DNA of 64,000 nucleotides from an uncultured Mucilaginibacter sp. (GCF_903893715.1 NZ_CAITNG010000039.1:1-64000); one strand, 5' to 3'; counted from the first letter of the stretch, positions 44,346 to 62,086 are shown. The notes: a model not told the origin generated them from the sequence alone. Translations and numbers: made by a program.

Positions 44346-44350
44346 GTCAA

Positions 44351-45466: not shown

Positions 45467-45471
45467 ATCTT

Positions 45472-46815: not shown

Positions 46816-46832
46816 TTAATTTTTATTTGAAA

Positions 46833-46877
46833 CAAAAGTAGTCTCAGCAAAAAAGTTAAACGGTAACATTTGTTACC
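46833..46877 (-). promoter_or_regulatory. Crp/Fnr-type operator and promoter, RND efflux operon
   Basis: A perfect palindrome GGTAACATTTGTTACC (46862-46877, centre 46869.5) is followed on the minus strand by a perfect -7 box TACTTTTG (46840-46833). The centre-to-box distance is 36.5 bases. It is the strongest of the five sites. Confidence 0.82.
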
Positions 46878-47068
46878 TAGGGAGCGGCCTCGGTAAACTT
46901 TAAAAATGAAAAATCCTACGCACTCGCCGCCCAGAAACTTCAACCTAAATATTCAAAATGTGTATTTGGAAGAAAATATAAAATGATCCTATATGAAGAT
47001 GAAAAATTCGCCGATACTCATGTTTGCAATAACTCGAAAAGGCGGTCAATGACAAGGACACCTCTTAA

Positions 47069-47239
47069 ATTTTTGGTATTGAAAATATCTACTGTAAGAT
47101 TAGTGAGTATTACGAGGCTAATAATCATCTTGATAAAGCGATTGAATTTTGGGAAAAGGCGGTCGTCCTTAATCCTAAAGTCGGTATCTCGCGTAAGCTG
47201 GAAAACCTAAAAAAGAAGGCCGTTTATAAAGATAAATGA
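47069..47239 (+). pseudogene. TPR-protein C-terminal remnant
   Basis: A plus-strand frame without a start codon reads CKISEYYEANNHLDKAIEFW, continues EKAVVLNPKVG and ends at 47239. It looks like the last tetratricopeptide repeat of a longer protein, such as the tail of a serine hydrolase with a TPR end. Upstream frames are broken. It sits between the RND and Wadjet operons and marks a boundary where a gene was lost. Confidence 0.5.
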
Positions 47240-47262
47240 TAACCAATTCGGTTTGAAGGGCA

Positions 47263-48117
47263 TTATTTTATCAGTATTTCCTGCTCTAAGCCTTTTTTAT
47301 ATTGATGTATAAAACTAATCAATTCATGAATTTTTGGCTCCGTAACGAGCTTCAGGTCAAAATTGATCTTCTGACCGTCGTATAATTTTCGGTTTCCCCA
47401 TGTCTTGATCGACAATTCAATATGATCAGGTACGAAGAATGTTGATCGTGATCCCAAATGACGCTTATATTCATTTAGATAAATACCAATTCCAGCAAAG
47501 TCAAAATCACCGTAGTGCAAATAAGGGTTTTCAATAGCTTGCAGCCATTTTATCAGGTCTTTACTTTGATTTAGGGGATACCGGCAAACAAATAATGGAC
47601 GGATATTTTCAAATAAATGCCTTTGCTTAGCTATTTGGCTAAAATTTTCAGAATTTTCAACACCCACTATGGTTAAGCCGGGATGTGGCACAAAATGCTT
47701 GGTATCATGTATAAATTGAAATGTTCCGGCAGGGGGATTAATTTTGATGTTCTCTCCGTTCAGTGTTGCTCCGACAGGTTCATAACAATTTACAAGAAAC
47801 CCTGTAAAAGTCCTTACTTTTTTTGCTTTTGAATTAGTAGCAGCCTGAATTAAATCTGCCCTTGTGATAATGTCCTGGCTTAATGTGTTGACATAATGCT
47901 CCAGGTTTGTTATTGAAAAACGATTTGATAAAAATGCGTTCAGCGATTCGACCTTCGGAACATAAAGCAGACTTCTTGTACGGCCAGACCTTATGTCAGC
48001 AAGGATACCTTCCATCAATAATTCAGCTACCAGCGAGCCTTTTAATTTGCTTGCAGGTATTTTTTCACCTTTAGACAATTGTAAAAATATATTGGCTAAT
48101 GATTTGCTTAAAACCAT
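47263..48117 (-). CDS. jetD: Wadjet-like JetD, toprim-type nuclease subunit
   Basis: The 284-residue protein has a toprim-like metal site: E154 in VGVENSENF, D204 and D206 in YGDFDFAGIGIY, and a late Glu (E278 or E280) in KGLEQE. N-terminal helices (about 1-90) probably form winged-helix arms. In Wadjet systems JetD is the topoisomerase-VI-like subunit that cuts plasmid DNA after the SMC complex extrudes it. This protein is shorter than typical JetD proteins of about 380-400 residues. It lies three bases after the JetC-like gene and ends the operon. Confidence 0.8.
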   Translation of the reverse strand: MVLSKSLANIFLQLSKGEKIPASKLKGSLVAELLMEGILADIRSGRTRSLLYVPKVESLNAFLSNRFSITNLEHYVNTLSQDIITRADLIQAATNSKAKKVRTFTGFLVNCYEPVGATLNGENIKINPPAGTFQFIHDTKHFVPHPGLTIVGVENSENFSQIAKQRHLFENIRPLFVCRYPLNQSKDLIKWLQAIENPYLHYGDFDFAGIGIYLNEYKRHLGSRSTFFVPDHIELSIKTWGNRKLYDGQKINFDLKLVTEPKIHELISFIHQYKKGLEQEILIK

Positions 48118-48120
48118 GTT

Positions 48121-51100
48121 TTAATTGTTAGTGATTAGCTTTTTCACAGTAGTCACATTTTTATTGTTTTTAGCCAATAAATAGGTATGCCTGTAATCGA
48201 CAGCATTATACGATGTTGGCGAACTGTTAATTAACAAAATATTTCGGTCATTGGCGAATTTCAATATGCCCTTCACATTGTTCGGATGAAGTTTACCAAT
48301 TTCATCCATCATGCAATGCAGGCGAAAATCTTTAAATCTTTTTGATGCACTTTCTTTGAAAACATTTAAAAGCATAATGTTGATCATTGCCTTGACCAAT
48401 ATATCTGTCCCCTCAGATCCAACGTTTGTCAGCTTTTCAACCCACCCGCTATCATTGTCATTTTCTACGACTTTAAATTGCAATTCAAACGTATCGGACA
48501 AATTGATCTCCTTTAGTTTGGATGAGGCAATCTCACTTGCGAAGTTCTTGAGGTACCCTACTGCTTTTTTATTGATTTGTTCTGTTTCGTTTCCGCTGAA
48601 AAGGTTTGACTTACCTAAAGACAGCGCGTGTTCATCATTGAACTTTCTGATTTCGCTCAAGAGCATCACAATTTTATTTGCACTTGGCGATAAACGCAGA
48701 TTAATGCTTTTAATGACTCCGGCAAAATTGCGCTCCTCAAAATCCTTATTGATGTCCGAAATAACTTTTTGTATCGTTGCCTCCTTTGAAACAAGATCCG
48801 TGGTTTCTTTGCCAATCTGGAAGATTAAACTGGCAAAACGTTCATTAGTCCGTTTTTCAAATTCCGATATTTTGTCTTCCTCCAGAAACTCCTTTAAATT
48901 TTCGGCAAAAAGGAAAAAGTCGTTGGTCTCAATAAGATTGGTTTTAAACCCAAAGATATTTGCCAACGAAAAATGGCTCAAAAATTTTTGTATGGATGTG
49001 CGCAAGTCGTCAAGTTTGTCCCTTACTGAAAAGCTCTTGTCATTAATTTCATCGATCAAATCCTTAAGCCGCCTTGTGGTTCTAACGGATTCAGATACAA
49101 TAAGAGCAGCAGGATCAAGTTTTGAAAAAACTTCCGTTTGGCTGAAATGGTCAAATGCAAGGATATCTTCTTCAATTTTTCTTTGAGAAGCATCCAGTTC
49201 TGCGATGATATGGTTCAATTTGATCACCAACTCCTGAAGCTTGCCTTTAGCGATTTCGTGACGTTGCCTTTCTGTGGCCAACTGGTTCTCATAAATCTTT
49301 TTATCTGACTTAAATTTGTCAATCAGGTCAAACAACTCACGTTTATCCTTGCCATATTCAGAAACCGTTTGCCTGTTATTTTCGATAAACTGCAGCTCCT
49401 CAACTATCGCGACAAATTCTGTGTCAATTGCGTTGAGCCGCATGGTGTCTGCGCCGGCATGTTCCAGGGCTTTACTGGCCTGCAGATGAAGGTCATTAAT
49501 GCGGGATTGCACCTGTATATCTTCGGATTTAATGTCTTCAGATAGCTTATTCAAAGTCTCTTGCAAGCTGGTATTCTCTTTGGAAATTTTGTTATCCCGC
49601 TCTTTCTTTTTTACTTCCACCTGGTTCCTAACCTGATTTGTTAGAACCCTTAGCTGCTCATCGGCCGCTTGCTTCTCTTCTTTTGCAACCTCAATTTCCA
49701 GTTTTATCGATCTTATTGCCGCATTTTTTTCTTCTATGGCTTTACGGTGATTATCATCAAGCTGCACTGTCTTTTGATCCTTTGCGGAAATGGCCTTCTG
49801 CGAATCATATTCTTTAAGTGCAATTAAGTCCTTTAACGATTTTATTTGAGGCTGGTATTTCTTTTTACACCTATCCTGTTCCTTTACCCTATCTTCTCCT
49901 AAAGTTCTAACCGTTGCTTCCGATTTCTTTATCTGGTCCTCATACTTCCGTACTTCCTTTTCATAATCAGCGATTGTTTTAACAGAGGTGCTTATTTCTT
50001 TCAGGTCAATTTCGAGACCATAGAAATTAGTCGATCCGCCCGTTGTATTTTGCGGAGATAAACCAGTATGGAATAACACCTGTTCCTGGTTAATCACCTT
50101 TCCTATAGTTTTTTCCCACCCAGGCTTATTTTCATTGAGCCAATCAAAAAGCGAATTTTTTCGGTTATTAATCAGTGTGTTTATTTGCTCAATGCTTTTT
50201 TTAGCACTTAAAATCGCTTCCTCAAGTCGTGCGCAGGTATGATTATATTCGTTGTCAAACTTTGCAAGATCAAAATCCCATTGCTTTTGTATCGATTCTA
50301 ATTGTTTTTTAGATCCTGCTATTTCGATACCAGCAGCGTGTATCACCCGGTTAGCTTCGCTTATACTATTTTTACACTCTTCTATTTCCCTTTCATACCA
50401 GCGTTCTAATTCAACTTCACGTTTCCTGATTTCCAACTTATGGAGATTTGATGTCTTGATTGAAATAAGCTCCTGCGCGTTTGCTTTCGTGTCTGTGTTT
50501 TCCTTTTCAATCTCCGCGATCAATTCGTCACACTGGAGACCAATCACTTCTTTACTTTTATAAAAAACTTCCCTGCTGTTATTTTTTTCAGCATTTTTTA
50601 AATTAGTAAAGTCGTTCAAATGATTTTTATTTTGACCAATTAAGGCATCAAACTTGGCCGTTATCTCTGTAAAACGGGCGGTTAGCAGCGCCTGCTCTTT
50701 TTGTAATTTCTCTTTCCTGCTTTCCCATTCTGATCGCTTATTGACCCGTTCTATTAGTTGATGGATATTTATACGTTCGTATCCTTCGGATTTTTGCTTT
50801 GCCTCATTCAATTTTCCAGTCAGTAGGGTAATTTCTTTTACGATTTTTTCCTTTTTGTCTTCAAACCGCTGATCTGCTTCTGACACCTTTTTATTGGCTG
50901 CGCTTAACTTTTCATTTTCGTTTTCAAGTTGCTTCATTATTCCTGGCAATGCCTTTTCGAAGAACGCGTGGTTGGTGATCAGTTGTGTTGCAACAATTGA
51001 CTTTTCTTTTTCCAAAAAGCAAATTTCCGTGTACGATTTGGAGATAGCATCTGCGATCAGCCGAACTACGACTTCGCCAGAGCGATTCTTATTGCTCCAT

Positions 51101-51780
51101 TTGCTTATATCATCCAGTTGGACTTCAAAGTCTTTAAGGTGAAGTTCATATTGGTCCAGGTCAATTTTTACGTCCTCTTCATTCAGGGACATGATGATTG
51201 TCTGTTTAATAAATTCTGCTTCCAGCTTTGAATTCAAAAATACATTCTGGATAGTTCTGGGCAGGTTTTGATACTGCCTGCTTTCAATCAAAGCATACTT
51301 ACGAAATTCCGCATTAAGGCCTTTGTTATTGCCATATAGAATGTCCCGGTATTCTTCATACCGTTCAATTTTCCGTGTGTAGATATTTGTCCCGGAAAAA
51401 GTCCCCCTGATTTGCTCCCAGGACATTGCTTTGTTCTCGGGATTGATATAATTTTCTTTCTTGTATGGACCCTCTATAAAACGAAAAGCAACGCGGCCCT
51501 GGGACTTAAATGCCAGGACACAAAAGGGGCCGGATTCTCTTGCGACTTCATAAACGATGAAAGAGTTTCCGTAGGGGAAGTAATACTCGTCGAACGTACG
51601 CTTGCCTTTTTCAATTCCCAATTTAAGTTTATCGGCATTATAGAAAAATAGTATCGCCCGAAGTGTAGTGCTTTTGCCCACCCCCTGGGTTCCAATAAAA
51701 TGAACGTTGCCATCTATGCTTATATCGGCATAAGAGATACCCGCACTGTTTATAAAAACGATCTTATTCAGGTATCTCAT
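48121..51780 (-). CDS. jetC: Wadjet-like JetC, SMC/MukB-type ATPase
   Basis: The 1219-residue protein has a Walker A GTQGVGKST at 30-38, a very long coiled-coil middle (about 230-1000, rich in Lys/Glu/Gln) with a probable hinge, an ABC-type signature GSEGTDILVKAM (from about 1121) and Walker B HCMMDE with D1159-E1160. This is the SMC/MukB architecture of Wadjet motors that extrude DNA loops. It overlaps the JetB-like gene by 17 bases. Neighbours on both sides complete a JetABCD set. Confidence 0.88.
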   Translation of the reverse strand: MRYLNKIVFINSAGISYADISIDGNVHFIGTQGVGKSTTLRAILFFYNADKLKLGIEKGKRTFDEYYFPYGNSFIVYEVARESGPFCVLAFKSQGRVAFRFIEGPYKKENYINPENKAMSWEQIRGTFSGTNIYTRKIERYEEYRDILYGNNKGLNAEFRKYALIESRQYQNLPRTIQNVFLNSKLEAEFIKQTIIMSLNEEDVKIDLDQYELHLKDFEVQLDDISKWSNKNRSGEVVVRLIADAISKSYTEICFLEKEKSIVATQLITNHAFFEKALPGIMKQLENENEKLSAANKKVSEADQRFEDKKEKIVKEITLLTGKLNEAKQKSEGYERINIHQLIERVNKRSEWESRKEKLQKEQALLTARFTEITAKFDALIGQNKNHLNDFTNLKNAEKNNSREVFYKSKEVIGLQCDELIAEIEKENTDTKANAQELISIKTSNLHKLEIRKREVELERWYEREIEECKNSISEANRVIHAAGIEIAGSKKQLESIQKQWDFDLAKFDNEYNHTCARLEEAILSAKKSIEQINTLINNRKNSLFDWLNENKPGWEKTIGKVINQEQVLFHTGLSPQNTTGGSTNFYGLEIDLKEISTSVKTIADYEKEVRKYEDQIKKSEATVRTLGEDRVKEQDRCKKKYQPQIKSLKDLIALKEYDSQKAISAKDQKTVQLDDNHRKAIEEKNAAIRSIKLEIEVAKEEKQAADEQLRVLTNQVRNQVEVKKKERDNKISKENTSLQETLNKLSEDIKSEDIQVQSRINDLHLQASKALEHAGADTMRLNAIDTEFVAIVEELQFIENNRQTVSEYGKDKRELFDLIDKFKSDKKIYENQLATERQRHEIAKGKLQELVIKLNHIIAELDASQRKIEEDILAFDHFSQTEVFSKLDPAALIVSESVRTTRRLKDLIDEINDKSFSVRDKLDDLRTSIQKFLSHFSLANIFGFKTNLIETNDFFLFAENLKEFLEEDKISEFEKRTNERFASLIFQIGKETTDLVSKEATIQKVISDINKDFEERNFAGVIKSINLRLSPSANKIVMLLSEIRKFNDEHALSLGKSNLFSGNETEQINKKAVGYLKNFASEIASSKLKEINLSDTFELQFKVVENDNDSGWVEKLTNVGSEGTDILVKAMINIMLLNVFKESASKRFKDFRLHCMMDEIGKLHPNNVKGILKFANDRNILLINSSPTSYNAVDYRHTYLLAKNNKNVTTVKKLITNN

Positions 51781-52336
51781 GCTGTATATCTTCAGGTATG
51801 TCTATGTTCAGTATCAACTTTTCCAGGTACGTAAATGAAGCCAGGGTTTTATATTCATGTACGATGATATTTTCTAATTCGATAAAGTTATCCTTCTCCA
51901 AAATATCTAACACCTTGTCGATAATTTCTGAATGCTTTTCCTTTCCAGGCGTGTACTTTTTTAGACCTTCTAACTTATTTTTCAAATCTGCGTCAACGCT
52001 TAACCTTACCAACAAGTCAGAAGGCTTGAATCGAAATCCTGACCCGAAACTATTTTCAAACGTTTTTAGAAAATCAACAATATCAATCCATTTCATGGCA
52101 ATTTCCAGTTTACGTTCCATTTCCGCGCGGCTTTCGGACCGCGCAAAGTAGTAGTATTCATCACCTTCTTCCAGGATCAGGTTAATACCCATGAAATAAT
52201 CACAATAAGAATCATAATCCTGGCTGATTGCCGAGTAAAGTTTGCGCACGGATTCTCTACTGCTGTTGGAACAAATAAATTGGCCCTTATTCAGTATTTC
52301 AAAAACCTCTGCTGACTGTTTGGGTATTTCCTGCAT
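51764..52336 (-). CDS. jetB: Wadjet-like JetB, MukE-type subunit
   Basis: The 190-residue protein is mostly helical with a KLYSAISQDYDSYCDYF / YYYFARSESRAEMERKLE pattern, consistent with tandem winged-helix MukE/JetB subunits. I assign it by size, position and overlap with the ATPase gene rather than by strong motifs. It lies one base after the JetA-like gene. Confidence 0.72.
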   Translation of the reverse strand: MQEIPKQSAEVFEILNKGQFICSNSSRESVRKLYSAISQDYDSYCDYFMGINLILEEGDEYYYFARSESRAEMERKLEIAMKWIDIVDFLKTFENSFGSGFRFKPSDLLVRLSVDADLKNKLEGLKKYTPGKEKHSEIIDKVLDILEKDNFIELENIIVHEYKTLASFTYLEKLILNIDIPEDIQHEIPE

Positions 52337-52337
52337 G

Positions 52338-53537
52338 TTATAACGGATAAATCAATAAATATTCTGTGTTCTGCCGGGTTTGATAGTCCCCGGTCAACCT
52401 GAACTGCAGGTCATATTGCGAAATAAGCTGGCAATAAATGGTAAGGCATTCCTCAAAGGATACCGGTTTGCCAAAATCGTAGGTCTGTAGAAAATCGAAC
52501 AGGTTGTTACTTCCGGCAAGGAAACTATTTTTAACCGCCTCAAGATTTATTTGTTCCACCTCTTCAATATCAAGTTGCAAATAGTCTGATAAATTATTAT
52601 CAGAAAGCTGAATGACAGAACGGTTGCCGGTCTTGTTTCTGCTCACAACTTTTTTTATGGCATCGAGTGCTTCATCATCGCTTTGCAACTGATCTAAAGA
52701 AAGCTTCAGGGGGTAGGCTGGATTAGGCTCATAAACCAGTGCATGGTCTGTCAACAAAAGTTTGACGATGTTCGTCTTGCTTTTTAATTCGAATTGGTCT
52801 TTTAAATATTTTAATTGCCTGATTTTTTCCAATAGCCCGCTTTGATATTTTAAGCGGTTCAAAAACTCTATAATTTGCTTTTGTATATCAATTAAATTAT
52901 GGCGGCAAAAATTAAGCTGCCCCCGCAACGCGTTAATGATCCTTTGCAATTCTTCATCTGAAGCGGTTTTGAAAAAAGTCTGCTCCTCATCACCAGCTAC
53001 CAGATTATCCGTTAGTGAGACGAGGGTTGTAATGTCATTTCGCTTGAGGTCAAGGTGCTCCAGCTTGGCCTTCTTTATTTTATAATTTGGTTCATTCTTA
53101 AACGTATTATCGATGTTACGTTTAAGGTCAACGACATTTCTTATGGCAATAATCCCCGTTTTTCTTAAGGCACTTTTAACCTGTCTCAGATAATTATACT
53201 TCCGGCTTTCACTATTTTCCTTCAGGTAATAAATGATATTTTGCTTTATGGTTTGGAGATTCTCCGAGATGTAGGAAACATTTATTTCTTCATTTACTTC
53301 TAATATCTGTTCAAAAAATTGAAGGAACTGATCGTCAAGCTCCAAATAGGCCCCATTTTCCCTAAGCACCGCGAATTCAAGCAATAGCCGAAGTTTATCC
53401 TCATTGTAATCCAAGACTTCTAAGGCATCGTCATATTTATAGGACAAGACTTTGCGCTTCTCAAATATTTCCGTGATGAGCTTTTGTTCCCGGCTTAGCA
53501 CCAATAGTAATTCACGTATAGATGAAAATGTTTTCAA
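52338..53537 (-). CDS. jetA: Wadjet-like JetA, MukF-type kleisin
   Basis: The 399-residue protein has a helical N-terminal winged-helix-like part (about 1-95), a long helical middle (about 100-270) and a C-terminal part (about 290-399), as in MukF/JetA kleisins. The start is TTG at 53537, with AAGGAAA nearby and no good ATG close, so I accept it. It is first in the jetABCD operon and diverges from the XRE-ImmA gene, 225 bases away. Confidence 0.72.
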   Translation of the reverse strand: MKTFSSIRELLLVLSREQKLITEIFEKRKVLSYKYDDALEVLDYNEDKLRLLLEFAVLRENGAYLELDDQFLQFFEQILEVNEEINVSYISENLQTIKQNIIYYLKENSESRKYNYLRQVKSALRKTGIIAIRNVVDLKRNIDNTFKNEPNYKIKKAKLEHLDLKRNDITTLVSLTDNLVAGDEEQTFFKTASDEELQRIINALRGQLNFCRHNLIDIQKQIIEFLNRLKYQSGLLEKIRQLKYLKDQFELKSKTNIVKLLLTDHALVYEPNPAYPLKLSLDQLQSDDEALDAIKKVVSRNKTGNRSVIQLSDNNLSDYLQLDIEEVEQINLEAVKNSFLAGSNNLFDFLQTYDFGKPVSFEECLTIYCQLISQYDLQFRLTGDYQTRQNTEYLLIYPL

Positions 53538-53705
53538 ATTGCTATTTCCTTATATTACAATTGATTACTTTATAGAGGTTTTAAAAGAAGGCTAATTTAT
53601 TTAGTTTTCGGTTCCTTTTATAATATTTTATCTGTTAGTGTTAAGTCTTTTTCATTTTAGCGTAAACTACTTATCCGAGTAAGGAAAATAAATTTATGAA
53701 AATAG

Positions 53706-53736
53706 TTGTTTACAAAAAACAGTTTTTGTATATTTG
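53706..53736 (+). promoter_or_regulatory. Promoter with embedded operator, XRE-ImmA gene
   Basis: A TTGTTT -33-like element (53706-53711) and a perfect -7 box TATATTTG (53729-53736) are about 17 bases apart. A perfect 8-bp palindrome TACAAAAA-ACAG-TTTTTGTA (53711-53730) fills the space between them. A repressor bound there would block the promoter. The XRE-domain protein encoded downstream is the obvious candidate, giving autoregulation. Confidence 0.7.
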
Positions 53737-53762
53737 TCTACACCGAAACAGAAAGAAAACCA

Positions 53763-54821
53763 ATGGAACAAACATTTGCCACCAACCTCACGCGCGCAAG
53801 ACTGCTAAGAGGTCTATCAATGGAAGAACTGGCATCTATGGCAAATTGCTCTAAGCAGGCGATCAGTCACTACGAAAGTGGATTGAGGAGGCCCGACAGC
53901 AGTATGCAATTATCCATAGCCGATGCCTTAGAAAAAGACATTGACTATTTTTACAATGATGCGAACGTAGCATTTAACCTGCACAATGTTAATTACAGGG
54001 AGGGTATGCTGTTAAGCCCTGCTCAAAGAAGTAAAGTTGAAGAACTTGCCAGCGCCCGATTGAATGATTATCTGGAATTGGAACGTATCGCCAAAGAACT
54101 GGTTGCGTTTCAAAATCCGCTGGAAGACATCATTATCAACAATACGTTTGAAGCGGAAAAAGCCGCGAAGCAGCTACGGAAAAAATGGAAACTTGGAGAG
54201 GAACCGATCTATAATATTTCCGGCTTTCTGGAGAAAAAAGGAATCAGGATCTTAAAAATTGATTTTGGTTTCCACTACAGCCATGAGGGCTTGTCCGGGT
54301 GGGCAGAAGAAAAAAGAGTGCCTGTTATTATTCTTAATGCCAGGCAGCAAGATTTGGCAAGGGTTAGATTTACGATCCTGCATGAACTCGGGCATTTACT
54401 GTTAGAAATTCAAGAGAGCCTGGATATGGATGATATTGAACGTATTTGCGATGCTTTTGCTGGTGCTGTATTATTACCTGCTGAAATATTGGAACAGGAG
54501 TTTGGCAAAAATAGGACGGCTATCTCCATGCCGGAATTACGACGGATAAAGGAAATCTATGGTATTTCTATTAAAGCGATAATGGTCAGAGCCAGGGTAA
54601 CAAAATTAATTACTTACGAATCCTATCAAAAATGGCTTACCGCGGATTATCCTGACGCTGCATATGGGCAGTATAATGGTACGGAAGAACCTCAGAAATT
54701 CCTGCAAATGCTTTACCGTTGCCTAAGTGAAAAGAAAATAGGATTTGATAAGGCCGCTAAACTTTCAGGCTGGGATGAAGCTGAATTTAGGCAAATTTAT
54801 AAACAACAAGTAGAGTTTTAA
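53763..54821 (+). CDS. XRE regulator fused to ImmA/IrrE metallopeptidase
   Basis: The frame is open from 53706, but ATG 53763 lies just after the promoter and gives MEQTFATNLTRARLLRG, a normal XRE start (352 residues). Residues about 5-60 form a helix-turn-helix (MEELASMANCSKQAISHYESG). A zinc peptidase with HELGH at 207-211 and a later Glu-containing segment (DAFAGAVLLP) follows. Such proteins cleave or sense a partner in toxin-antitoxin and mobile-element switches. A PIN-like gene starts two bases after its stop. The gene diverges from the jet operon. Confidence 0.9.
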   Translation: MEQTFATNLTRARLLRGLSMEELASMANCSKQAISHYESGLRRPDSSMQLSIADALEKDIDYFYNDANVAFNLHNVNYREGMLLSPAQRSKVEELASARLNDYLELERIAKELVAFQNPLEDIIINNTFEAEKAAKQLRKKWKLGEEPIYNISGFLEKKGIRILKIDFGFHYSHEGLSGWAEEKRVPVIILNARQQDLARVRFTILHELGHLLLEIQESLDMDDIERICDAFAGAVLLPAEILEQEFGKNRTAISMPELRRIKEIYGISIKAIMVRARVTKLITYESYQKWLTADYPDAAYGQYNGTEEPQKFLQMLYRCLSEKKIGFDKAAKLSGWDEAEFRQIYKQQVEF

Positions 54822-54822
54822 G

Positions 54823-55281
54823 ATGAACAATATCGTTATAACAGAGATTCAACTGGCCGCAACTTTTTACAGGTCAGGGCTACTTAAATATTTTAACAGT
54901 GATGAATTAGCATTTCACATTACGGACATCTGTTATAAGCATAAGATATTAGCAATCAATAACGATAGGTTGACGGCGCAAAAGATGGTTGACGCCGGCT
55001 TGCTTAAAGTTGTGACCCTGGATGAAAGCCAGATGGGCGAAGTAGACCGGCTTCATCATTTTTACAAACCGCAGTTTATTGTTAAAACAGTAACTGCACT
55101 TGTATTAGCGCAGCAAACTGGCTACAAGCTGTTAAGCCAGGATGATCTGCTCAGGGAGACGGCAGCACACGATTTTAAAATCAGGGCTATTAATAAAGGA
55201 TGGCTTATTGAAATTTTAGTAAACGAAATCAGTATGATGGGAGAAACGATAGATGTAGACTTAGTAAAGCAAATTATATAA
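54823..55281 (+). CDS. PIN-like protein paired with XRE-ImmA
   Basis: The 152-residue protein resembles the C-terminal half of PIN nucleases (TALVLAQQTGYKLLSQDDLLRETA). The first Asp of a classic PIN site is not obvious: the start reads NIVITEIQLAATFY. It could be a degenerate or atypical PIN. The tight spacing after the XRE-ImmA gene suggests a two-gene unit in which one product controls the other. A toxin role is inference. Confidence 0.65.
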   Translation: MNNIVITEIQLAATFYRSGLLKYFNSDELAFHITDICYKHKILAINNDRLTAQKMVDAGLLKVVTLDESQMGEVDRLHHFYKPQFIVKTVTALVLAQQTGYKLLSQDDLLRETAAHDFKIRAINKGWLIEILVNEISMMGETIDVDLVKQII

Positions 55282-55583
55282 AAAAAAGCCACGGCAGAAA
55301 TTACCATGACTTTGTTAATTCGATTAAGACCAAAGCTTTACAGGCTCTTGACTTAGGTAAGAATGTTCTTGCACTTCAAACTTACCTTCTTTTTCGCAAT
55401 TCTGCAAATCCTCTGAGTGTTTTCAACCGAATAAGGCATAAAAATGCCTATTTGAGCGTGTATGGTTGAATTTAAAATTAAAAAAAAGTAAAAAAGCAAT
55501 TTTCATTTCCTGGTAATACCAGCCTGCGCTACAAAAATGATATGTAGGGCCTTATTCACTTTTTAAATTTTAATAATATTATC
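55282..55583. other. Intergenic stretch with a nested hairpin
   Basis: The main feature is a nested inverted repeat: outer TCAACC/GGTTGA (55423-55469) around AGGCAT-AAAA-ATGCCT (55434-55449). It could be a structured leader or a terminator of the PIN-like gene. No open frame of interest is seen. Confidence 0.45.
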
Positions 55584-56282
55584 ATGTCAAATGAAAATAA
55601 AGGGGGAGCGCTTACCCCAAAATTAGCGCAAGCTTTGCAATTTTTTATAGAGGGTAAACAGTTTGAAACCTTCCATCAGTACCTGACAGGGGCTCAGTTA
55701 AAAGAGCTGGCCAGTATCCCACTGGCAGTTAATTTGTACTTAGCAGTGCAAGCGGGTTATGAGCCTGAATTGATCGGTAATGAAAAAGAAGTTGATCTTG
55801 CCCGTAAGGATATAGAGCAATTCTTTGTCAAAGACAAGCTTAAATTTACCATCAATAGCGAACCCTTTACCTGGTACGAACAATATATTTCCGGCAAGCA
55901 AATTCGCGTCTTGGGTAAAATTGCAGCGGCGGATGAGATATTTTTGCAAGTTCCGCCGCCTTATCATAATGAACTCATCACTGACGATAGGGAGGTCGAT
56001 TTGGCGCTGCCGGGCAAAGAGAGTTTTATATCAAAAGCGCAACCGTTCGAGGTTACGCTGATTGTTAATGGGCAACCTAAAAAATGGAAAGAGAAAACCA
56101 TCTCTTATGACCAGGTGGTGATTTTGGCTAAGCAGGATGACCCCTCCACCGGGGAAAAGGCCTATACTATTACGTACTTTGATGGGCCACCGCAAAACCC
56201 TAAAGGGGAATTAGCTAAGAGTCAGATTGTTTTTGTAATTAATGAAATGATATTCAATGCAACAGCAACTGATAAGTCTTAA
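55584..56282 (+). CDS. Multiubiquitin protein, three beta-grasp repeats
   Basis: The 232-residue protein holds three tandem ubiquitin-like repeats (about 13-81, 82-150, 151-232). Repeats 1 and 2 share ELIGNEKEVDLA and ELITDDREVDLA. The C-terminus is NATATDKS, with no Gly-Gly. This matches the multiubiquitin family. It overlaps the E1-like gene by 26 bases and starts a four-gene unit. It is probably processed or recognised by the E1-like and DUF6527 proteins; direct conjugation through a di-glycine end is not supported by the sequence. Confidence 0.88.
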   Translation: MSNENKGGALTPKLAQALQFFIEGKQFETFHQYLTGAQLKELASIPLAVNLYLAVQAGYEPELIGNEKEVDLARKDIEQFFVKDKLKFTINSEPFTWYEQYISGKQIRVLGKIAAADEIFLQVPPPYHNELITDDREVDLALPGKESFISKAQPFEVTLIVNGQPKKWKEKTISYDQVVILAKQDDPSTGEKAYTITYFDGPPQNPKGELAKSQIVFVINEMIFNATATDKS

Positions 56283-57441
56283 CCCTGATTTGAAGCAACT
56301 CAGGGATGAGGGGTATGAAATTGAAATAATTGGTGGATACGTATGTATCCACCACATACCTTATGTAAATAGCAAGAAGGAAGTGAAATATGGTAAACTG
56401 ATCACGGATATTACCTTAATTACACCAACTCTTGCAGATAAGCCGAAAGACCACACGGCTTTTTTTGTAGGTGAACAGCCTTGCCATCTAACGGGTGAAT
56501 CGATGTCCGAAATAATTAATCTTGCGATACAGAATAAACCCTTGACAGAAAAAATCATCGGGAACTTTTACCTGTCAAGCAAGCCCAAAAGTGGCAATTA
56601 CGCTAACTTTTATGATAAGTTCTCGCGTTACATCTCGTTAATCTCCGTAGCGGCCAGGGCCATTGAGCCGATAGCTACAGCGCGTACTTACAAACCGATG
56701 AGCGATGATGAGGAGAATAGTGTCTTTCAGTATTATGATACCAACTCAAGCCGGGCAAACATCATGCAGTTAAACGCTAAGTTTAAAACACAAAAGATCG
56801 GGATTATAGGCCTCGGTGGCACCGGTTCGTACATTCTGGATTTTATGGCGAAGACCTGTGTGGCAGAGATACATCCGTTTGATGGCGATGACCTAAAGGT
56901 GCATAATGCTTTTCGAATGCCGGGCGCGGCATCGGCAGATGATTTGCAGGCCAGAATGAAAAAAGTCGATTATTTCGAAGCTTTATATTCAAAAATGCAC
57001 AAGGGAATTAAGCCGCACGCCGTTTACATTACGGAGGAGAATAAACACCTGCTCATAGGCTTGTCGTTTGTATTCATTTGCGTTGACAAAAATAGTGTGA
57101 GAAATGCGATCATTCAAATCCTGCTGGCGATGAATATTCCGTTTATTGATGTGGGCATGGGTGTAAGGGTGATCGGTGATAAATTGACAGGTATGACAAG
57201 GACGACTGTAGGAACACCTGAAAAAAATGAACATTTAGCCAACAGAATCTCAACCGAAGATACGGACGATAACGATTACACGACCAATGTGCAAATTGCA
57301 GAATTAAACGCATTTAATGCCATTTCAGCAGTGATCAAGTGGAAGAAAATGGTTGGGTTTTACCAGGATTTGCGCCATGAATACCATTCAACTTATTCTT
57401 TAAATGTAGGAGAGATCATCAATGAAGAAACTAAGGCATGA
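56257..57441 (+). CDS. E1-like ThiF adenylyltransferase with N-terminal extra domain
   Basis: The 394-residue protein has an E1/ThiF core from about 178: GLGGTG (185-190), acidic FDGDD around 208-212, R220 in NAFRMPG, and D277 in VFICVDKN. An extra N-terminal domain (1-170), of the DUF6791 type by its position before ThiF, may be E2-like, with C76 in GEQPCHLTG. No cysteine occurs after C275, so a classic E1 catalytic Cys is missing; C76 is the main candidate for carrying a ubiquitin-like thioester. It overlaps both neighbours, so translation is likely coupled. Confidence 0.88.
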   Translation: MQQQLISLNPDLKQLRDEGYEIEIIGGYVCIHHIPYVNSKKEVKYGKLITDITLITPTLADKPKDHTAFFVGEQPCHLTGESMSEIINLAIQNKPLTEKIIGNFYLSSKPKSGNYANFYDKFSRYISLISVAARAIEPIATARTYKPMSDDEENSVFQYYDTNSSRANIMQLNAKFKTQKIGIIGLGGTGSYILDFMAKTCVAEIHPFDGDDLKVHNAFRMPGAASADDLQARMKKVDYFEALYSKMHKGIKPHAVYITEENKHLLIGLSFVFICVDKNSVRNAIIQILLAMNIPFIDVGMGVRVIGDKLTGMTRTTVGTPEKNEHLANRISTEDTDDNDYTTNVQIAELNAFNAISAVIKWKKMVGFYQDLRHEYHSTYSLNVGEIINEETKA

Positions 57442-57859
57442 GTTTGTGCAGTATATGCCTGAACAACCGGAGGAAGGTGTTATTTATATCTCCATGAAAT
57501 ACCGACTGGCCGTACACCAATGTGTGTGCGGCTGCGGTAATAAAGTGATCACGCCTTTTTCTCCTACGGATTGGGAATTGCGCTTTTATGGCGATAGCAT
57601 ATCATTAAAGCCCTCTATCGGAAATTGGAATTTCGACTGCAAATCACATTACTGGATAGTAAAAAATCAGATCAGATTTGCAGGGCGCTGGAGTGAACAG
57701 CAAATCAATGATGGTAGAAAACGGGACAAAAAACGCAAGGGCAATTTTTACGCCGATGATACAGCAATAAAACCAGTGGAGGTGATTGTAACACAGCCTG
57801 TTGTTAAATCCGGATGGAAGTTGAAAAGGCTGAAATCATTCTTTAGCTTTTTATCATAA
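57422..57859 (+). CDS. DUF6527 metal-binding protein
   Basis: The 145-residue protein has H32 and C34-x-C36-x-C38 (HQCVCGCGNKV) with C73 and H76 in FDCKSHYWI, a likely zinc site, and a basic tail (about 95-140). This is the DUF6527 family that goes with multiubiquitin and ThiF genes. It may be a ubiquitin-like ligase or adaptor; no activity is established. It overlaps the E1-like gene by 20 bases. Confidence 0.88.
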   Translation: MKKLRHEFVQYMPEQPEEGVIYISMKYRLAVHQCVCGCGNKVITPFSPTDWELRFYGDSISLKPSIGNWNFDCKSHYWIVKNQIRFAGRWSEQQINDGRKRDKKRKGNFYADDTAIKPVEVIVTQPVVKSGWKLKRLKSFFSFLS

Positions 57860-57892
57860 AGTAATTAAAAATACGGAAAGGAGGTATATAAG

Positions 57893-58012
57893 ATGAGCAA
57901 AATAACAGTGAAAGTAAATAAAAGTGCCGTTACCGGTAAATTTGTTTCTAATCAACAGGTCAAAAGTAGTCCTAAAACGACCTACGTGCAAACCGTTAAC
58001 AAATCCAGGTAA
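57893..58012 (+). CDS. 39-residue basic peptide at the end of the ubiquitin-like operon
   Basis: A short frame (MSKITVKVNKSAVTGKFVSN, then QQVKSSPKTTYVQTVNKSR) follows the DUF6527 gene by 33 bases. A GGAAAGGAGG Shine-Dalgarno lies eight bases before the ATG, stronger than at most genes here. It is Lys/Thr/Val-rich with no membrane segment. Short proteins of this KxxxxGKFVxxxxxxxxPKTT kind appear next to multiubiquitin/DUF6527 genes and are sometimes misnamed. A bidirectional terminator follows. Confidence 0.72.
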   Translation: MSKITVKVNKSAVTGKFVSNQQVKSSPKTTYVQTVNKSR

Positions 58013-58032
58013 TTGAATTATTAACAATTCTT

Positions 58033-58065
58033 AAATAGCTATAGCGCCATGCTATGGCTATTTTT
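58033..58065. terminator. Bidirectional terminator between convergent operons
   Basis: AATAGCTATAGC-GCCAT-GCTATGGCTATT is a 12-bp stem with one G-T wobble and a T-run. It ends the ubiquitin-like operon and the opposing nuclease gene. Confidence 0.8.
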
Positions 58066-59305
58066 ATATATTATAAAATAGGTGGTGTAATTCCACAAAC
58101 TTAAACTCATCTGATGGCAAAACATGATGGGACAGGAAATGACTGGCAGAAATTTTTTGAAAGCCTTTACGATAAGATGGATGTGCATTGATGGCAGTAT
58201 CCGCTTCTGTTAATACGTTAGTCAGGCTTTTGTTTTTTACAAAAGTAATCATGATGCCGTAGTTCTCCCGCCAGGTTAGGTAGCCTAATAACTGATCAAT
58301 AGTTTCTCCGTATAATTTCTGCCCGCCCCATATTTTGCATTCGCACACCAGGATATTCCCTTTGGCAATATTTAGATAAATATCAGATTTGCCTTTGGCG
58401 TTAAACGTCTCACCTGTTGCTTTACCTTGAAAGACGGTGTTCAGTCCGACCAGTAAGATATTACGAAAATCATTTTCACCGCTATTCTCAAACGATGCGG
58501 GCGTTTTCTCAAACTGGCTTCCCTGGTTGTCGAGGATGTGTATAATGGCCAGTACATCCTCTCTTTTTATGCTATAATTTTCGGGCTGGGTGGGGTTCGG
58601 TTTTACTTTCTGCACGAGGGGTTGCGTATCCAATTGAATACGTTTAACAACGTCGTCGTCTTTCTTTTTTATCGGGATGCCTATTTGTTTAAACAGCGAA
58701 TTATATTTTTCTTTATCGGCCGTTAACTTGGTTTTTCGGCCCTCTATTAACGCCTTGATTTTCTGCAATAACATCGCATTTTCAGTTGTAACTTCAGTTT
58801 CAATGATATGGATGTGATTGTAAACATATTGCTTTAACCTTTGCACCTCGTTAATAACCCAAGTGTCGTCCCGGTTAAAGGCATATCCTTTTATGTCGAT
58901 AGTAAACTCAGCGGTATTTCGTTTCCAATTTACTGCTTTTGTACTTCCACCCAATGAAAACGTTGATGGCCGCATATTTAACAAAGCAGAAAGATGGGCA
59001 TTATGCACTATAGGAATGGTAACATGGATCGATTCATATTCGTAAGGCAGGTCACCTTCATCCCGGTAAGAGTCTTCGCGCTGGTCAGCCCGTATAATCC
59101 TTACCTCATTTTTTTGTTCAAGTGTTTCAGTTCTTTCCAGATCTATTTTTACGGGATCGTAGTGTTTATTTGAATAGTAGTAATCCGCTAATTCTTCTGT
59201 AGTCGTTCCGATAATGGTGGAATCAGGCTCTTTTAAAATTTGAAGCTTTATGTCTTCAAGAATCTTATTGTATGCATCGGAAAATGATGCTCTTATTGTA
59301 TACAT
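58064..59305 (-). CDS. PD-(D/E)XK nuclease-type protein
   Basis: The frame is open from 59407, overlapping the Fic gene by 47 bases, but those codons translate a 37-base DNA repeat. ATG 59305 after that repeat is the better start (413 residues). The C-terminal third has a restriction-type site: D308 in GKSDIYL and E322-x-K324 in VCECKIWGG, followed by QLLGYLTWREN. A Gly-rich N-terminal part and a Lys-rich middle helix region are unassigned. It is downstream of Fic and should cut DNA; which DNA is unknown. Confidence 0.75.
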   Translation of the reverse strand: MYTIRASFSDAYNKILEDIKLQILKEPDSTIIGTTTEELADYYYSNKHYDPVKIDLERTETLEQKNEVRIIRADQREDSYRDEGDLPYEYESIHVTIPIVHNAHLSALLNMRPSTFSLGGSTKAVNWKRNTAEFTIDIKGYAFNRDDTWVINEVQRLKQYVYNHIHIIETEVTTENAMLLQKIKALIEGRKTKLTADKEKYNSLFKQIGIPIKKKDDDVVKRIQLDTQPLVQKVKPNPTQPENYSIKREDVLAIIHILDNQGSQFEKTPASFENSGENDFRNILLVGLNTVFQGKATGETFNAKGKSDIYLNIAKGNILVCECKIWGGQKLYGETIDQLLGYLTWRENYGIMITFVKNKSLTNVLTEADTAINAHPSYRKGFQKISASHFLSHHVLPSDEFKFVELHHLFYNI

Positions 59306-59316
59306 ATCATAGTCAA

Positions 59317-59353
59317 ATGAGCCGGTATGAGCCGATAATACCCGATAATGAGC
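59317..59353 (-). repeat. 37-base operator-like repeat, copy A
   Basis: Begins ATGAGCCGGTATGAGC and is made of GAGCCGATA/CCCGATAA-type units; 34 of 37 bases match 60435-60471 in the same orientation. It lies 11 bases before the nuclease start and just after the Fic stop. Together with copy B before Fic it suggests shared control, probably by the Fic protein's winged helix. Confidence 0.75.
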
Positions 59354-59360
59354 TAATAGT

Positions 59361-60404
59361 TTATAAAATGTTATAATTAGTTCCAGGCCCTGCACCCTGT
59401 TTTTCAATCAATTTCTTTTCAACTAACTCAGCCAATATTCGTTTCATGGTTGGGCTGGAAATATCCAGTTTCTTAGCGATCTCGCTCGATTTAATGCCGG
59501 GATTACTTTCAATAATAACCAATACGGCTGCGTCTCTTTTGGTAATGCTTTTTCCCACCCCATGAGTGCTTAATTTGGTCAACAAGGAAGTCTGTATGTT
59601 TTTTAAGGAATTCAGGAAAAATAGTACCCAAGGCGTTATATCTTCGCCGGGCCGTTGTGCCTGGCAGCTTCTAAGTACACGGTAATATTCTGTTTTTTGG
59701 CTTTCGATCTCGTGTTCTAAACTTACATATTGAATCCACTCGTAGCCATATTTACGCAATAACAATGTTGCCAATAACCGGCTTAAACGCCCGTTGCCAT
59801 CCTGGAAGGGATGTATCGTTACAAACTCGTAGCTGAATAAAGCGCATTTAATTAATGGATGCGCAGTATTATCTTTATCATGCCATTCCACTAATGCACG
59901 CATTGCTTCCTCTGTGGCAAAGCCGGGTTCCGCAGTTTGGAAAATGATTTGCGTTGTTCCATCCGGCATGTTGGCTTGAACCGCATTGCTGGCTTGCTTG
60001 TAATCCCCTTTATGCCATTGATCTTTTTCACTATACCGCATCAATTGATTGTGCAGGTTTTTCAATCCATTTTCTGAAATCTGAATGTCGCTATAATGTT
60101 CACCGATTAAATCCAGCACTTCAAAATAACCCACTACTTCCTGCTGGTCTCTTTCCTGTAGTTTTGATATATCGATATTTTTTAAAAGCACGTCAACCTC
60201 AGCATCGCTTAGTTTAGAGCCTTCGATCCTTGTTGATGCACCCACACTTCTTACCGTTGCGATAGACTTTAATTCTTTTAAACTTTGGCCCTCCCTACGC
60301 TCTATGGCAGTCCAGGCTGCATCGAACCGGTCAATTTCGCTTAATAGGGTGATTAATTCCCAATTTAAATCAAGGTTTAAAGTATGGACGCTTACGTTAC
60401 TCAT
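59361..60404 (-). CDS. Fic family protein with C-terminal winged helix
   Basis: The 347-residue protein has an N-terminal inhibitory motif S57-x3-E61-G62, the Fic active site HPFQDGNGR (198-206), and a C-terminal winged helix (about 282-347: SSEIAKKLDISSPTMKRIL). Fic enzymes usually AMPylate targets; the inhibitory motif keeps such enzymes quiet until released. The DNA-binding domain makes it a candidate autoregulator at the 37-base repeats in front of it and of the nuclease gene. Confidence 0.92.
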   Translation of the reverse strand: MSNVSVHTLNLDLNWELITLLSEIDRFDAAWTAIERREGQSLKELKSIATVRSVGASTRIEGSKLSDAEVDVLLKNIDISKLQERDQQEVVGYFEVLDLIGEHYSDIQISENGLKNLHNQLMRYSEKDQWHKGDYKQASNAVQANMPDGTTQIIFQTAEPGFATEEAMRALVEWHDKDNTAHPLIKCALFSYEFVTIHPFQDGNGRLSRLLATLLLRKYGYEWIQYVSLEHEIESQKTEYYRVLRSCQAQRPGEDITPWVLFFLNSLKNIQTSLLTKLSTHGVGKSITKRDAAVLVIIESNPGIKSSEIAKKLDISSPTMKRILAELVEKKLIEKQGAGPGTNYNIL

Positions 60405-60434
60405 GAATCAAAGGTACAAAATAACTAAAACAAA

Positions 60435-60471
60435 ATGATCCGATATGAGCCGATAATATCCGATAATGAGC
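60435..60471 (-). repeat. 37-base operator-like repeat, copy B
   Basis: Begins ATGATCCGATATGAGC and differs from copy A at three of 37 bases. It lies 30 bases upstream of the Fic start. See copy A. Confidence 0.75.
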
Positions 60472-60651
60472 CGTTACAATAAAGGATTTTAATAGCAGGT
60501 CCGGTTTCACAATCAGTCATGAACTTGGTCATTACAAATTGACGCAGTCGCAATATTCGATTAGAGATTCTTAATGTTAATCCTAAGAAAAATATACCAT
60601 TTAGGATTAAAAGTTCGCAGCTTTCGAATCGGCGTTTACAAGAAGATTCGA

Positions 60652-61092
60652 CTAAAGTTTTTCTATAGTTTTTTGCTCCTCGTCAGAAAACCTAACGTGT
60701 TTCGACAAATCTTTCACCATATTCCTGGCGAAAACAGCACCGGGTGATCCACTTTTCATTACGTCATCATCGCCTAAGGCAACCTGCTCCCCGTAGATTG
60801 CTTTCTTTAAATCCCTCCGGTGATTAACTTCTTCCATTTTACCCTTCAATTTTTCAACCAGAGTAAAGTCAGGTTCGCCATTTTGTACCAGGTCAGCAAA
60901 ATCTTTATAAGGCGCAAGGCTTACATTGATTACCTTTTGCATTACTTCTCCCCATTGCAGTACTTCCCGAACAGAAAACTCCTTATTGTTTTGCGACTGC
61001 ATTTCCATCACCATCGCCAGGAACATTTCCGGTGTTCCGTTCCAACCGGGTTTAAACTTGAATAGCTTCTGAAAAAATGAAAATAATCCCAT
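60652..61092 (-). CDS. Conserved-looking protein of unknown function
   Basis: A 146-residue, mostly helical protein: MGLFSFFQKLFKFKPGWNGT start, then FLAMVMEMQSQNNKEFSVREVLQWGEVM and a charged C-terminus. It has no recognised domain. It lies between the Fic unit and the mobile-element genes, on the same strand as Fic. Coding-like composition supports it as a gene. Confidence 0.55.
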   Translation of the reverse strand: MGLFSFFQKLFKFKPGWNGTPEMFLAMVMEMQSQNNKEFSVREVLQWGEVMQKVINVSLAPYKDFADLVQNGEPDFTLVEKLKGKMEEVNHRRDLKKAIYGEQVALGDDDVMKSGSPGAVFARNMVKDLSKHVRFSDEEQKTIEKL

Positions 61093-61441
61093 CTCTTTTT
61101 ATTTAAGGTAATTATCCTTTGTTATGTAAATATAAGTATTGCAAGTATTGTTTGCTCCCTGTCAACTTCACTTTCCCAAAACAACTATGGCACCCCCTTC
61201 GGGCCGGGCTATTCGCTGTATCTGCTTCGCAGGATGCCGCTGCTATCCCTGTTGCAATTAATGCAAAAGCACTTTTGCTTTGCGCAAGAGCTTTTGCAAC
61301 GGGTTAAATATAAAAAAACGGCAACATGGACAGCATTTGTTGACCACGCTCCATTTCATTCGCCGGGTCAAGCTGCATTTGCCACATCACCGTATTTTAT
61401 GAATTATAAGTTTGAATATAAAGTGCGATAAATGTTGCGGG
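61093..61441. other. Non-coding, hairpin-rich stretch
   Basis: Holds nested inverted repeats: GCAAAAG-CA-CTTTTGC (61263-61278) and GCAAAAGC/GCTTTTGC (61263-61297), with GTTGCA and TGCAAC at the outside. No gene is recognised. It may be a structural or origin-like element of the mobile DNA. Confidence 0.45.
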
Positions 61442-61627
61442 TTACTTCCTGCTATTCTTTTTGAGATAGGATTCCACATCCTTTGGGGAGTTGCCCACCG
61501 CATTAACAGCCGCTTTCAATTTAGCTTTGGTGACATCAAACTTATCAGCCCAGGCCCTTAAATCCTTGTCGTCGTTCATATTGATTACTTCAGTAATACC
61601 GCTGCCGATTGTTTGAGTACGTTCCAT
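61442..61627 (-). CDS. DUF3606 domain protein
   Basis: A 61-residue protein from ATG 61627 (MERTQTIGSGITEVINMNDDKDLRAWADKFDVT) matches DUF3606, a short family common in plasmids and integrated elements. The frame is open further upstream, but those residues have no resemblance to the family. Function unknown. Confidence 0.75.
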   Translation of the reverse strand: MERTQTIGSGITEVINMNDDKDLRAWADKFDVTKAKLKAAVNAVGNSPKDVESYLKKNSRK

Positions 61628-62086
61628 AATCCTAAATCTAATAACCGTGTTTTCGTAAAAATGGAACATTCCCCAACCGCCAGCCTGCCATATTAATTGG
61701 TTCAATTTACAAATATCCGCGTGAATAAAATCTCATTTATTTCTTCCGGCAAAGGTGAGTTTTCTTAACTGACAGAGGTCCTTATCGCCTTTGGCTCCAA
61801 TGGCATTTTATTATTTAATCAATGAATATTTTTAGTCGAAACGGGTAAAAAGCGCAGCTAAAATCAAGCCCGGAAATGTCGTTGGGTTCGCAAAAGACTT
61901 CGGCATAATGAAAAGCTCGTATCCTCGCTTTTCACCCTTCGGGACTTATTCCGATTCCTTTTGCCCGGCTGCCGGGCTTTAAGATTTGCTTTCTTTTTTC
62001 CCTTTTTCTTTTAAAAATAATCAATCAGGGCAAGGCGGCGAAAGGAAAAGCAAACAAATAATTATTCATTAAAAATTTTAAAAATT
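61628..62086. other. Non-coding stretch before ssb with hairpins
   Basis: GAAAAGC/GCTTTTC (61910-61933) and a GC-rich hairpin GCCCGG-CTG-CCGGGC plus TTT (61963-61980), the latter a possible plus-strand terminator or attenuator. No protein frame is recognised. Confidence 0.4.

Follow-up and report, generated by a model that had tools for sequence, protein, structure and literature searches.

A four-gene ubiquitin-like operon on a mobile defence island

We analysed a 64,000-nucleotide stretch of DNA from an uncultured Mucilaginibacter sp. (the window; NZ_CAITNG010000039.1:1-64000) and confirmed four open reading frames in a single operon on its plus strand (55584-58012). The first gene (55584-56282) encodes a multiubiquitin of 232 aa (PF14452, E 1.2e-26) and is present as a single copy in its own genome. 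It is followed by genes for an E1-like protein of 394 aa (56257-57441), which combines DUF6791 (PF20590) with a ThiF domain (PF00899) and belongs to the PRK06153 family, and for a DUF6527 protein (57422-57859; PF20137, 82 bits). The last reading frame (57893-58012) encodes an accessory basic peptide of 39 residues with no Pfam match, and a terminator-like hairpin of the intrinsic type, with 14 pairs (58033-58063, plus strand), closes the operon. The multiubiquitin gene runs 26 nt into the E1 gene (56257-56282), the E1 and DUF6527 genes overlap by 20 nt, and the peptide reading frame begins after a 33-nt gap; the four overlapping or closely spaced genes described in an earlier note on this DNA were thus recovered in full.

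The 26-nt overlap was found in all DUF6791-type loci checked with upstream sequence (about 50), which come from Bacteroidota, Proteobacteria, Cyanobacteria, Bacillota and contigs of viral collections; two truncated loci, L090 and L091, were left out of the overlap and tail reading. Its length is constant across phyla, and the E1 start codon within it is ATG, or TTG in L006. The overlap between the E1 and DUF6527 genes is not of fixed length, ranging from 4 to 32 nt. Since the gene order is kept across phyla, a DUF6527 gene accompanies 51 of 52 DUF6791-type loci and the 26-nt overlap recurs in all the loci checked, the arrangement is not a product of chance. Of 400 genomes of the order, 19 encode a DUF6791-containing E1, as do 14 of 395 genomes of the phylum; among plasmids, 121 records spanning several phyla carry relatives of the Mucilaginibacter E1. 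A search of phage genomes did not find the multiubiquitin. Some operons have a DUF2188 or DUF2188-like gene directly beside them, downstream or upstream, in Bacteroidota and Alphaproteobacteria (L017, 3224-3442; L019, 3225-3446; L030, 4500-4733).

A contiguous stretch of Mucilaginibacter segetis (contig NZ_JAEHFW010000002.1) matches the segment of the window at 46976-61631 with 99% identity, whereas positions 44000-46976 have no match in that genome. We therefore regard the segment as a transferred, recently exchanged defence island. It holds a Wadjet-like MksFEB-JetD set on the minus strand (47263-53537), consisting of a JetD-like gene (47263-48117), DUF3584/JetC (48121-51780), MksE (51764-52336) and a gene for a 399-aa protein in the place of JetA (52338-53537). 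An XRE-ImmA/IrrE fusion resembling RmrA and CapH-CapP follows on the plus strand (53706-54821; PADLOC RmrA 6e-44, capP 4e-15, capH 3e-10) and is possibly a regulator of the ubiquitin-like operon, outside its core set. On the other side, a PDC-S54 phage-defence candidate faces the operon (58064-59407, minus strand; PADLOC E 7e-77), followed by a SoFic-like Fic protein with a C-terminal winged helix (59361-60404, minus strand; PADLOC E 2e-48). This context, by itself, is what suggests an antiphage link for the operon. Separately, a 152-aa protein of no recognized family is encoded 1 nt after the XRE-ImmA/IrrE fusion; the pair, which spans 53706-55281, may represent a toxin-antitoxin pair or a regulator of the operon.

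The operon belongs to the Bub (Iyer type 6e) family

Comparison with described systems identified the locus as a member of an already known operon family, Bub (type 6e of Iyer et al.), in its DUF6791 or 'domain X' subtype, and not as a new system. In 2006, Iyer, Burroughs and Aravind described type 6e operons from Proteobacteria, Actinobacteria and Cyanobacteria that encode a polyUbl with 2-3 repeats, an E1 and a metal-binding protein Y bearing a C-x3-C zinc signature. The E1 carries a fused JAB domain, replaced in a subset of the operons by 'domain X', for which no chemistry was proposed beyond the analogy with JAB (PMC1779556). The Mucilaginibacter locus shares with the domain X subset the polyUbl, the E1 with a non-JAB N-terminal domain and the metal-binding partner, and the equation of domain X with DUF6791 is based on where the domain sits and on its gene neighbourhood rather than on Iyer's sequences. 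The earlier note had the gene set right, but recognized neither that operons of this type were already described in 2006 nor that structures of Bub relatives exist.

The Bub family comprises 544 operons, which often adjoin HTH/peptidase or WYL regulators, and protection against phages has so far not been shown for it (PMC13373217). In Synechocystis, the JAB-type set adjoins an HTH/DUF955 pair, a kind of neighbour reported for 70% of PF14452 loci (PMC4963859). In our analysis, the best structural match of the AlphaFold model of the Mucilaginibacter E1 (pLDDT 77) was the Citrobacter BubCD protein; VIA-align placed residues 167-382 on PDB 9ea4 with a Z of 22.8 over 209 residues (rmsd 2.6), and Foldseek gave an E of 2.3e-12. 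The Citrobacter BubCD homologue consists of Prok-JAB and ThiF, and its gene lies between those for a multiubiquitin-Prok-E2_E fusion and for DUF6527. From this arrangement we conclude that the solved Citrobacter system (BubA-BubB, BubCD and DUF6527; PDB 9ea4, 9eae, 9eav and 9ea8) and the Mucilaginibacter system represent different subtypes within a single operon family.

The two subtypes have in common the multiubiquitin, a ThiF E1 with a corresponding tyrosine at the catalytic-Cys position (Y370 in Citrobacter BubCD, Y341 here), DUF6527, the gene order, an association with mobile elements and, frequently, upstream HTH and ImmA/IrrE genes. They differ in that the JAB-type E1 carries Prok-JAB where the Mucilaginibacter E1 carries DUF6791, and in that JAB-type loci encode Prok-E2_E as a fusion or a separate gene, whereas the Mucilaginibacter operon has no PF14462 match. 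In JAB-type loci, 4 nt are shared between the E1 start and the gene before it, in contrast to the 26 nt of the DUF6791 type. A JAB domain was found neither in the Mucilaginibacter E1 by Pfam nor anywhere in the genome, and Prok-E2_E (PF14462) was likewise absent from the operon and the genome. The Bil (bacterial ISG15-like) system also combines a Ubl and an E1 in one operon, and BilA (8u38) is weakly similar to the multiubiquitin. Bil possesses a Cys E2 and a JAB DUB, both of which are lacking in the Mucilaginibacter operon.

An invariant adenylation site without an invariant cysteine

Pfam places DUF6791 at residues 10-162 of the E1-like protein and ThiF at residues 174-328, and the protein matches the NCBIfam PRK06153 equivalog at 536 bits. 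Residue conservation was counted in 44 non-redundant E1 relatives (<90% identity). In the ThiF adenylation domain (56776-57240, plus strand), the adenylation residues tested, D209, D211, N217, R220, K236 and D277, are each present in 44 of 44 sequences. Because these ATP-site residues are invariant, adenylation by the E1 should be possible. R220, which had been singled out earlier as a residue of interest, falls at the position of the catalytic Arg of adenylating E1s. The model also resembles MccB, ThiF and PaaA. While the adenylation fold is shared with MccB, ThiF and MoeB, the Mucilaginibacter E1 differs from these in having neither a catalytic nor a zinc-binding Cys, in its fused DUF6791 and in its presumed substrate, the multiubiquitin.

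The protein contains four cysteines (30, 76, 201 and 275), in agreement with the earlier statement that none follows C275. Among the 44 E1s, the residues for ATP and adenylate are present and the invariant catalytic cysteine of canonical ubiquitin-type E1s is absent: C76 (codon at 56482-56484, plus strand) is conserved in 42 and C275 in 28, and no cysteine is invariant. C76, near the invariant H66, G72, P75 and G80, was the earlier note's candidate nucleophile. This assignment does not hold for an essential residue, since C76 is replaced by Phe in L006 and by Tyr in L026, a locus from the same genus with a complete operon, including a TDKS tail and DUF6527, whose E1 of 393 residues has no cysteine at all. 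Conserved in so many relatives, C76 may nevertheless matter structurally or in most members of the family. C275 was also rejected as a nucleophile, as it belongs to a 'C-x-D' motif common among E1s and is missing from 16 of 44 sequences, and so was C201, which occurs in the Mucilaginibacter E1 alone among those aligned. The L026 genome carries a second, cysteine-containing copy of the operon a few kb away, on which the cysteine-free E1 could rely. Unless L026 is dependent on this neighbour or inactive, its E1 indicates that an E1-borne thioester is not obligatory for the family.

A conserved tyrosine, overlooked in the earlier note, was found instead by comparing the ThiF profiles of the two subtypes (hhalign, 98.9%, E 2.4e-17), in which Y341-T-T-N-V-Q pairs with Y370-I-T-G-L-Q of BubCD. 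Tyr341 (codon at 57277-57279, plus strand) is a Tyr in 43 of 44 relatives, the exception being L042, in which it is displaced one residue later, and the same Tyr is kept in all nine JAB-type E1s aligned. When eight sequences were aligned with MAFFT alone, Y341 fell beside another nearby BubCD Tyr, so the support for the Y341/Y370 pairing comes from the profile comparison and from conservation. PDB 9eav is a BubCD structure in which the depositors introduced Y370F. The catalytic Cys of ThiF and MoeB lies in a loop matching the Tyr341 region. By alignment, Tyr341 thus occupies the canonical position of the E1 catalytic Cys, and an ester may form between this Tyr and the Ubl. The earlier headline of a non-classical chemistry has comparative support, with Tyr341 as a candidate residue.

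DUF6791 as a putative E2-like domain

The DUF6791 domain (56284-56742, plus strand) is modelled as a helix, six strands and a helix. Structure matches to the E1 model covered the ThiF part only, and no independent fold match was obtained for DUF6791. In three loci, L023-L025, DUF6791 is encoded by a separate gene. Comparison of DUF6791 with Prok-E2_E in hhalign gave a collinear alignment of 126 columns (score 24.5, probability 11.7%, P 0.0025); this score was reached by none of 200 column shuffles and by one of 100 block shuffles, and the control families JAB, ThiF, DUF6527 and multiubiquitin scored 10.6-14.0. Ser107 (codon at 56575-56577, plus strand; 44 of 44, within [FL]-S-x-K) and His66 are invariant in DUF6791, and the [FL]-S-x-K motif may correspond loosely to the W-S-R-H motif in Prok-E2_E. 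A conserved Cys is likewise missing from the Prok-E2_E domains that JAB-type Bub operons encode. On this moderate profile evidence, we read DUF6791 as a probable, divergent and cysteine-less E2-like domain that would act in cis. A relationship of DUF6791 to JAB was considered and rejected (hhalign: global-mode P 0.94, local-mode score 12.0).

A multiubiquitin tail ending in serine

The multiubiquitin consists of three beta-grasp Multi_ubiq repeats (55638-55832, 55842-56033 and 56052-56273), and its closest solved structure is PDB 9cd2 (E 6.7e-17 with the single sequence, 6e-51 with a profile). We presume that the multi-ubiquitin proteins of 9cd2 and 9d59 come from Gong et al. 2025. The match to 9cd2 spans most of the length, and 9cd2 likewise ends in TDKS, yet these proteins are distant in sequence. 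The study behind them reportedly concerns Ca2+-dependent filaments.

The C-terminus reads TATDKS (56262-56279, plus strand), ending in DKS and not in Gly-Gly, as had been noted, so that Ser232 is the candidate terminus for adenylation. Ser is the last residue, and Gly never is, in every DUF6791-type locus read with upstream sequence. The tail has the form T-x-x-S in all of these, including T-G-E-S in L006, except for L081 (S-N-Q-S) and L094 (E-T-R-S). The DUF6791 type differs here from the solved BubA construct 155-229, which ends at Gly229, the junction with the E2 domain on the fusion sequence. In the overlaps of 33 loci, the last Ser codon always begins with TC (positions 20-21), and its third base (position 22), which is the wobble base for the ubiquitin and the second base of an E1 codon, varies (T9/A17/G7). 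As a result, residue 8 of the E1 can be Leu, His or Arg with no change in Ser232, and the codon of Thr229 likewise varies at the ubiquitin wobble base. Judged from this codon pattern, the T-x-x-S tail is under selection in the ubiquitin reading frame, as protein.

DUF6527 and the 39-residue peptide

The model of DUF6527 is confident (pLDDT 88.8), and no convincing match to its fold was found in the PDB (best Foldseek E 0.4, best VIA-align Z 2.1). Residues C34, C36, C38 and H76 are invariant both in the alignment of operon-encoded proteins and in the one that includes phage versions; C73 does not vary in the operon set, but many phage versions carry another residue there, and S65 is nearly invariant, being Cys in L063. 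C34, C36, C38, C73 and H76 are probable zinc ligands, and the zinc site suggested earlier is plausible, as this Cys/His set is invariant or almost so in operon-encoded relatives. DUF6527 accompanies both Bub subtypes. As a stand-in for the missing JAB it was rejected, because it is also present in nine of ten JAB-type loci. It further occurs alone in phages, including jumbo phages: lone genes of about 90 aa lie on phage contigs L051-L075 and in phages LC667451 and MW812339, with unannotated neighbours, and a counter-defence role is possible for them. A search of the literature on DUF6527, oxyester and BubE returned nothing concerning the DUF6791-type system.

The 39-residue peptide was found in 4 of 201 genomes of the order, always linked to the operon and nowhere else in these genomes, and has homologues in L011 (interrupted), L016, L017, L019 and L020. 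This distribution points to a real but accessory gene that is conserved in a minority of operons.

Discussion

Classic ubiquitin-type modification is characterized by Cys thioester intermediates and by a tail of Gly-Gly. In bacteria, a widespread branch apparently does without both, which would mean that the pathway is not tied to this chemistry, and the cysteine-free E1 of L026 makes the idea of non-thioester transfer directly testable. Taken as a whole, the reading we favour, with moderate confidence, is that of a DUF6791-subtype Bub operon on a mobile defence island, in which Ser232 would be adenylated and then transferred by a non-thioester route. The comparative data support a chemistry different from the classic E1-E2 relay, as the earlier note had proposed, in that no E1 cysteine is invariant, JAB and Prok-E2_E genes are lacking and the tail does not end in Gly, even though its choice of C76 did not stand.

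In the favoured mechanism, the ThiF domain would bind ATP and adenylate the multiubiquitin at its C-terminal carboxylate, on Ser232 of the T-x-x-S tail. The tail would be used as translated, because no JAB is present to trim it before adenylation. The acyl-adenylate would then be accepted not by a cysteine but by Tyr341, at the canonical catalytic-Cys site; alternatively, it might pass straight to the fused DUF6791, serving as an E2 in cis with Ser107 and His66 as the candidate centre. Either route would yield an oxyester or amount to direct acyl transfer, and the three-domain ubiquitin-like protein would end up attached to targets that the zinc-binding DUF6527 may select or release. All covalent steps are inferred here, as are the E2-like part assigned to DUF6791, the task of DUF6527 and any function in stress or against phages. 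The most specific form of this proposal, a fully cysteine-free relay in which an E2-like DUF6791 and a Tyr-E1 handle the unprocessed T-x-x-S tail of a three-domain ubiquitin through hydroxyl (oxyester) intermediates, is put forward only tentatively.

Other readings of the same genes deserve consideration. The operon may activate the multiubiquitin with no conjugation to proteins, either by modifying its C-terminus in the manner of MccB or of sulfur carriers, or by controlling the assembly of multiubiquitin filaments. The likeness of the E1 model to MccB, ThiF and PaaA fits such a role, as does the lack of a separate E2 gene in the operon and the genome. MccB adenylates a non-Gly (Asn) terminus. 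However, the nearest kin in structure and operon are BubCD and BubA, whose pathway is called protein conjugation in the title of a cited work, and DUF6791 probably supplies an E2-like domain, so we consider activation alone unlikely. A classical thioester relay through C76, with DUF6791 as an E2 or as the Cys domain of the E1, would account for the strong conservation of this residue and for its invariant surroundings; against it stand the complete L026 operon with its cysteine-free E1, the Phe of L006 and the lack of a conserved cysteine in the Prok-E2_E domains of JAB-type Bub, and we judge it improbable.

The tail, too, could be read differently, as a chemically idle by-product of the overlap with the E1 start. 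The 26-nt overlap in all loci checked does mean that each frame constrains the other, but the constraint sits in the ubiquitin frame, as the variation at the wobble bases of the Ser232 and Thr229 codons indicates. An overlap artefact is disfavoured by this pattern, and we regard it as very improbable.

Additional copies and relatives were also encountered. In L120 (G042:C17:1-11000), two divergent DUF6791-type operons occur within one genome, one of them with a cysteine-free E1 and three more upstream genes, including one for a ParA-like ATPase. On the Mucilaginibacter contig itself, outside the window, a second ThiF-like gene (267 aa; G000:C39:67546-68040) lies next to a macro-domain-like gene and, judging from its context, is probably of the PRTRC type.
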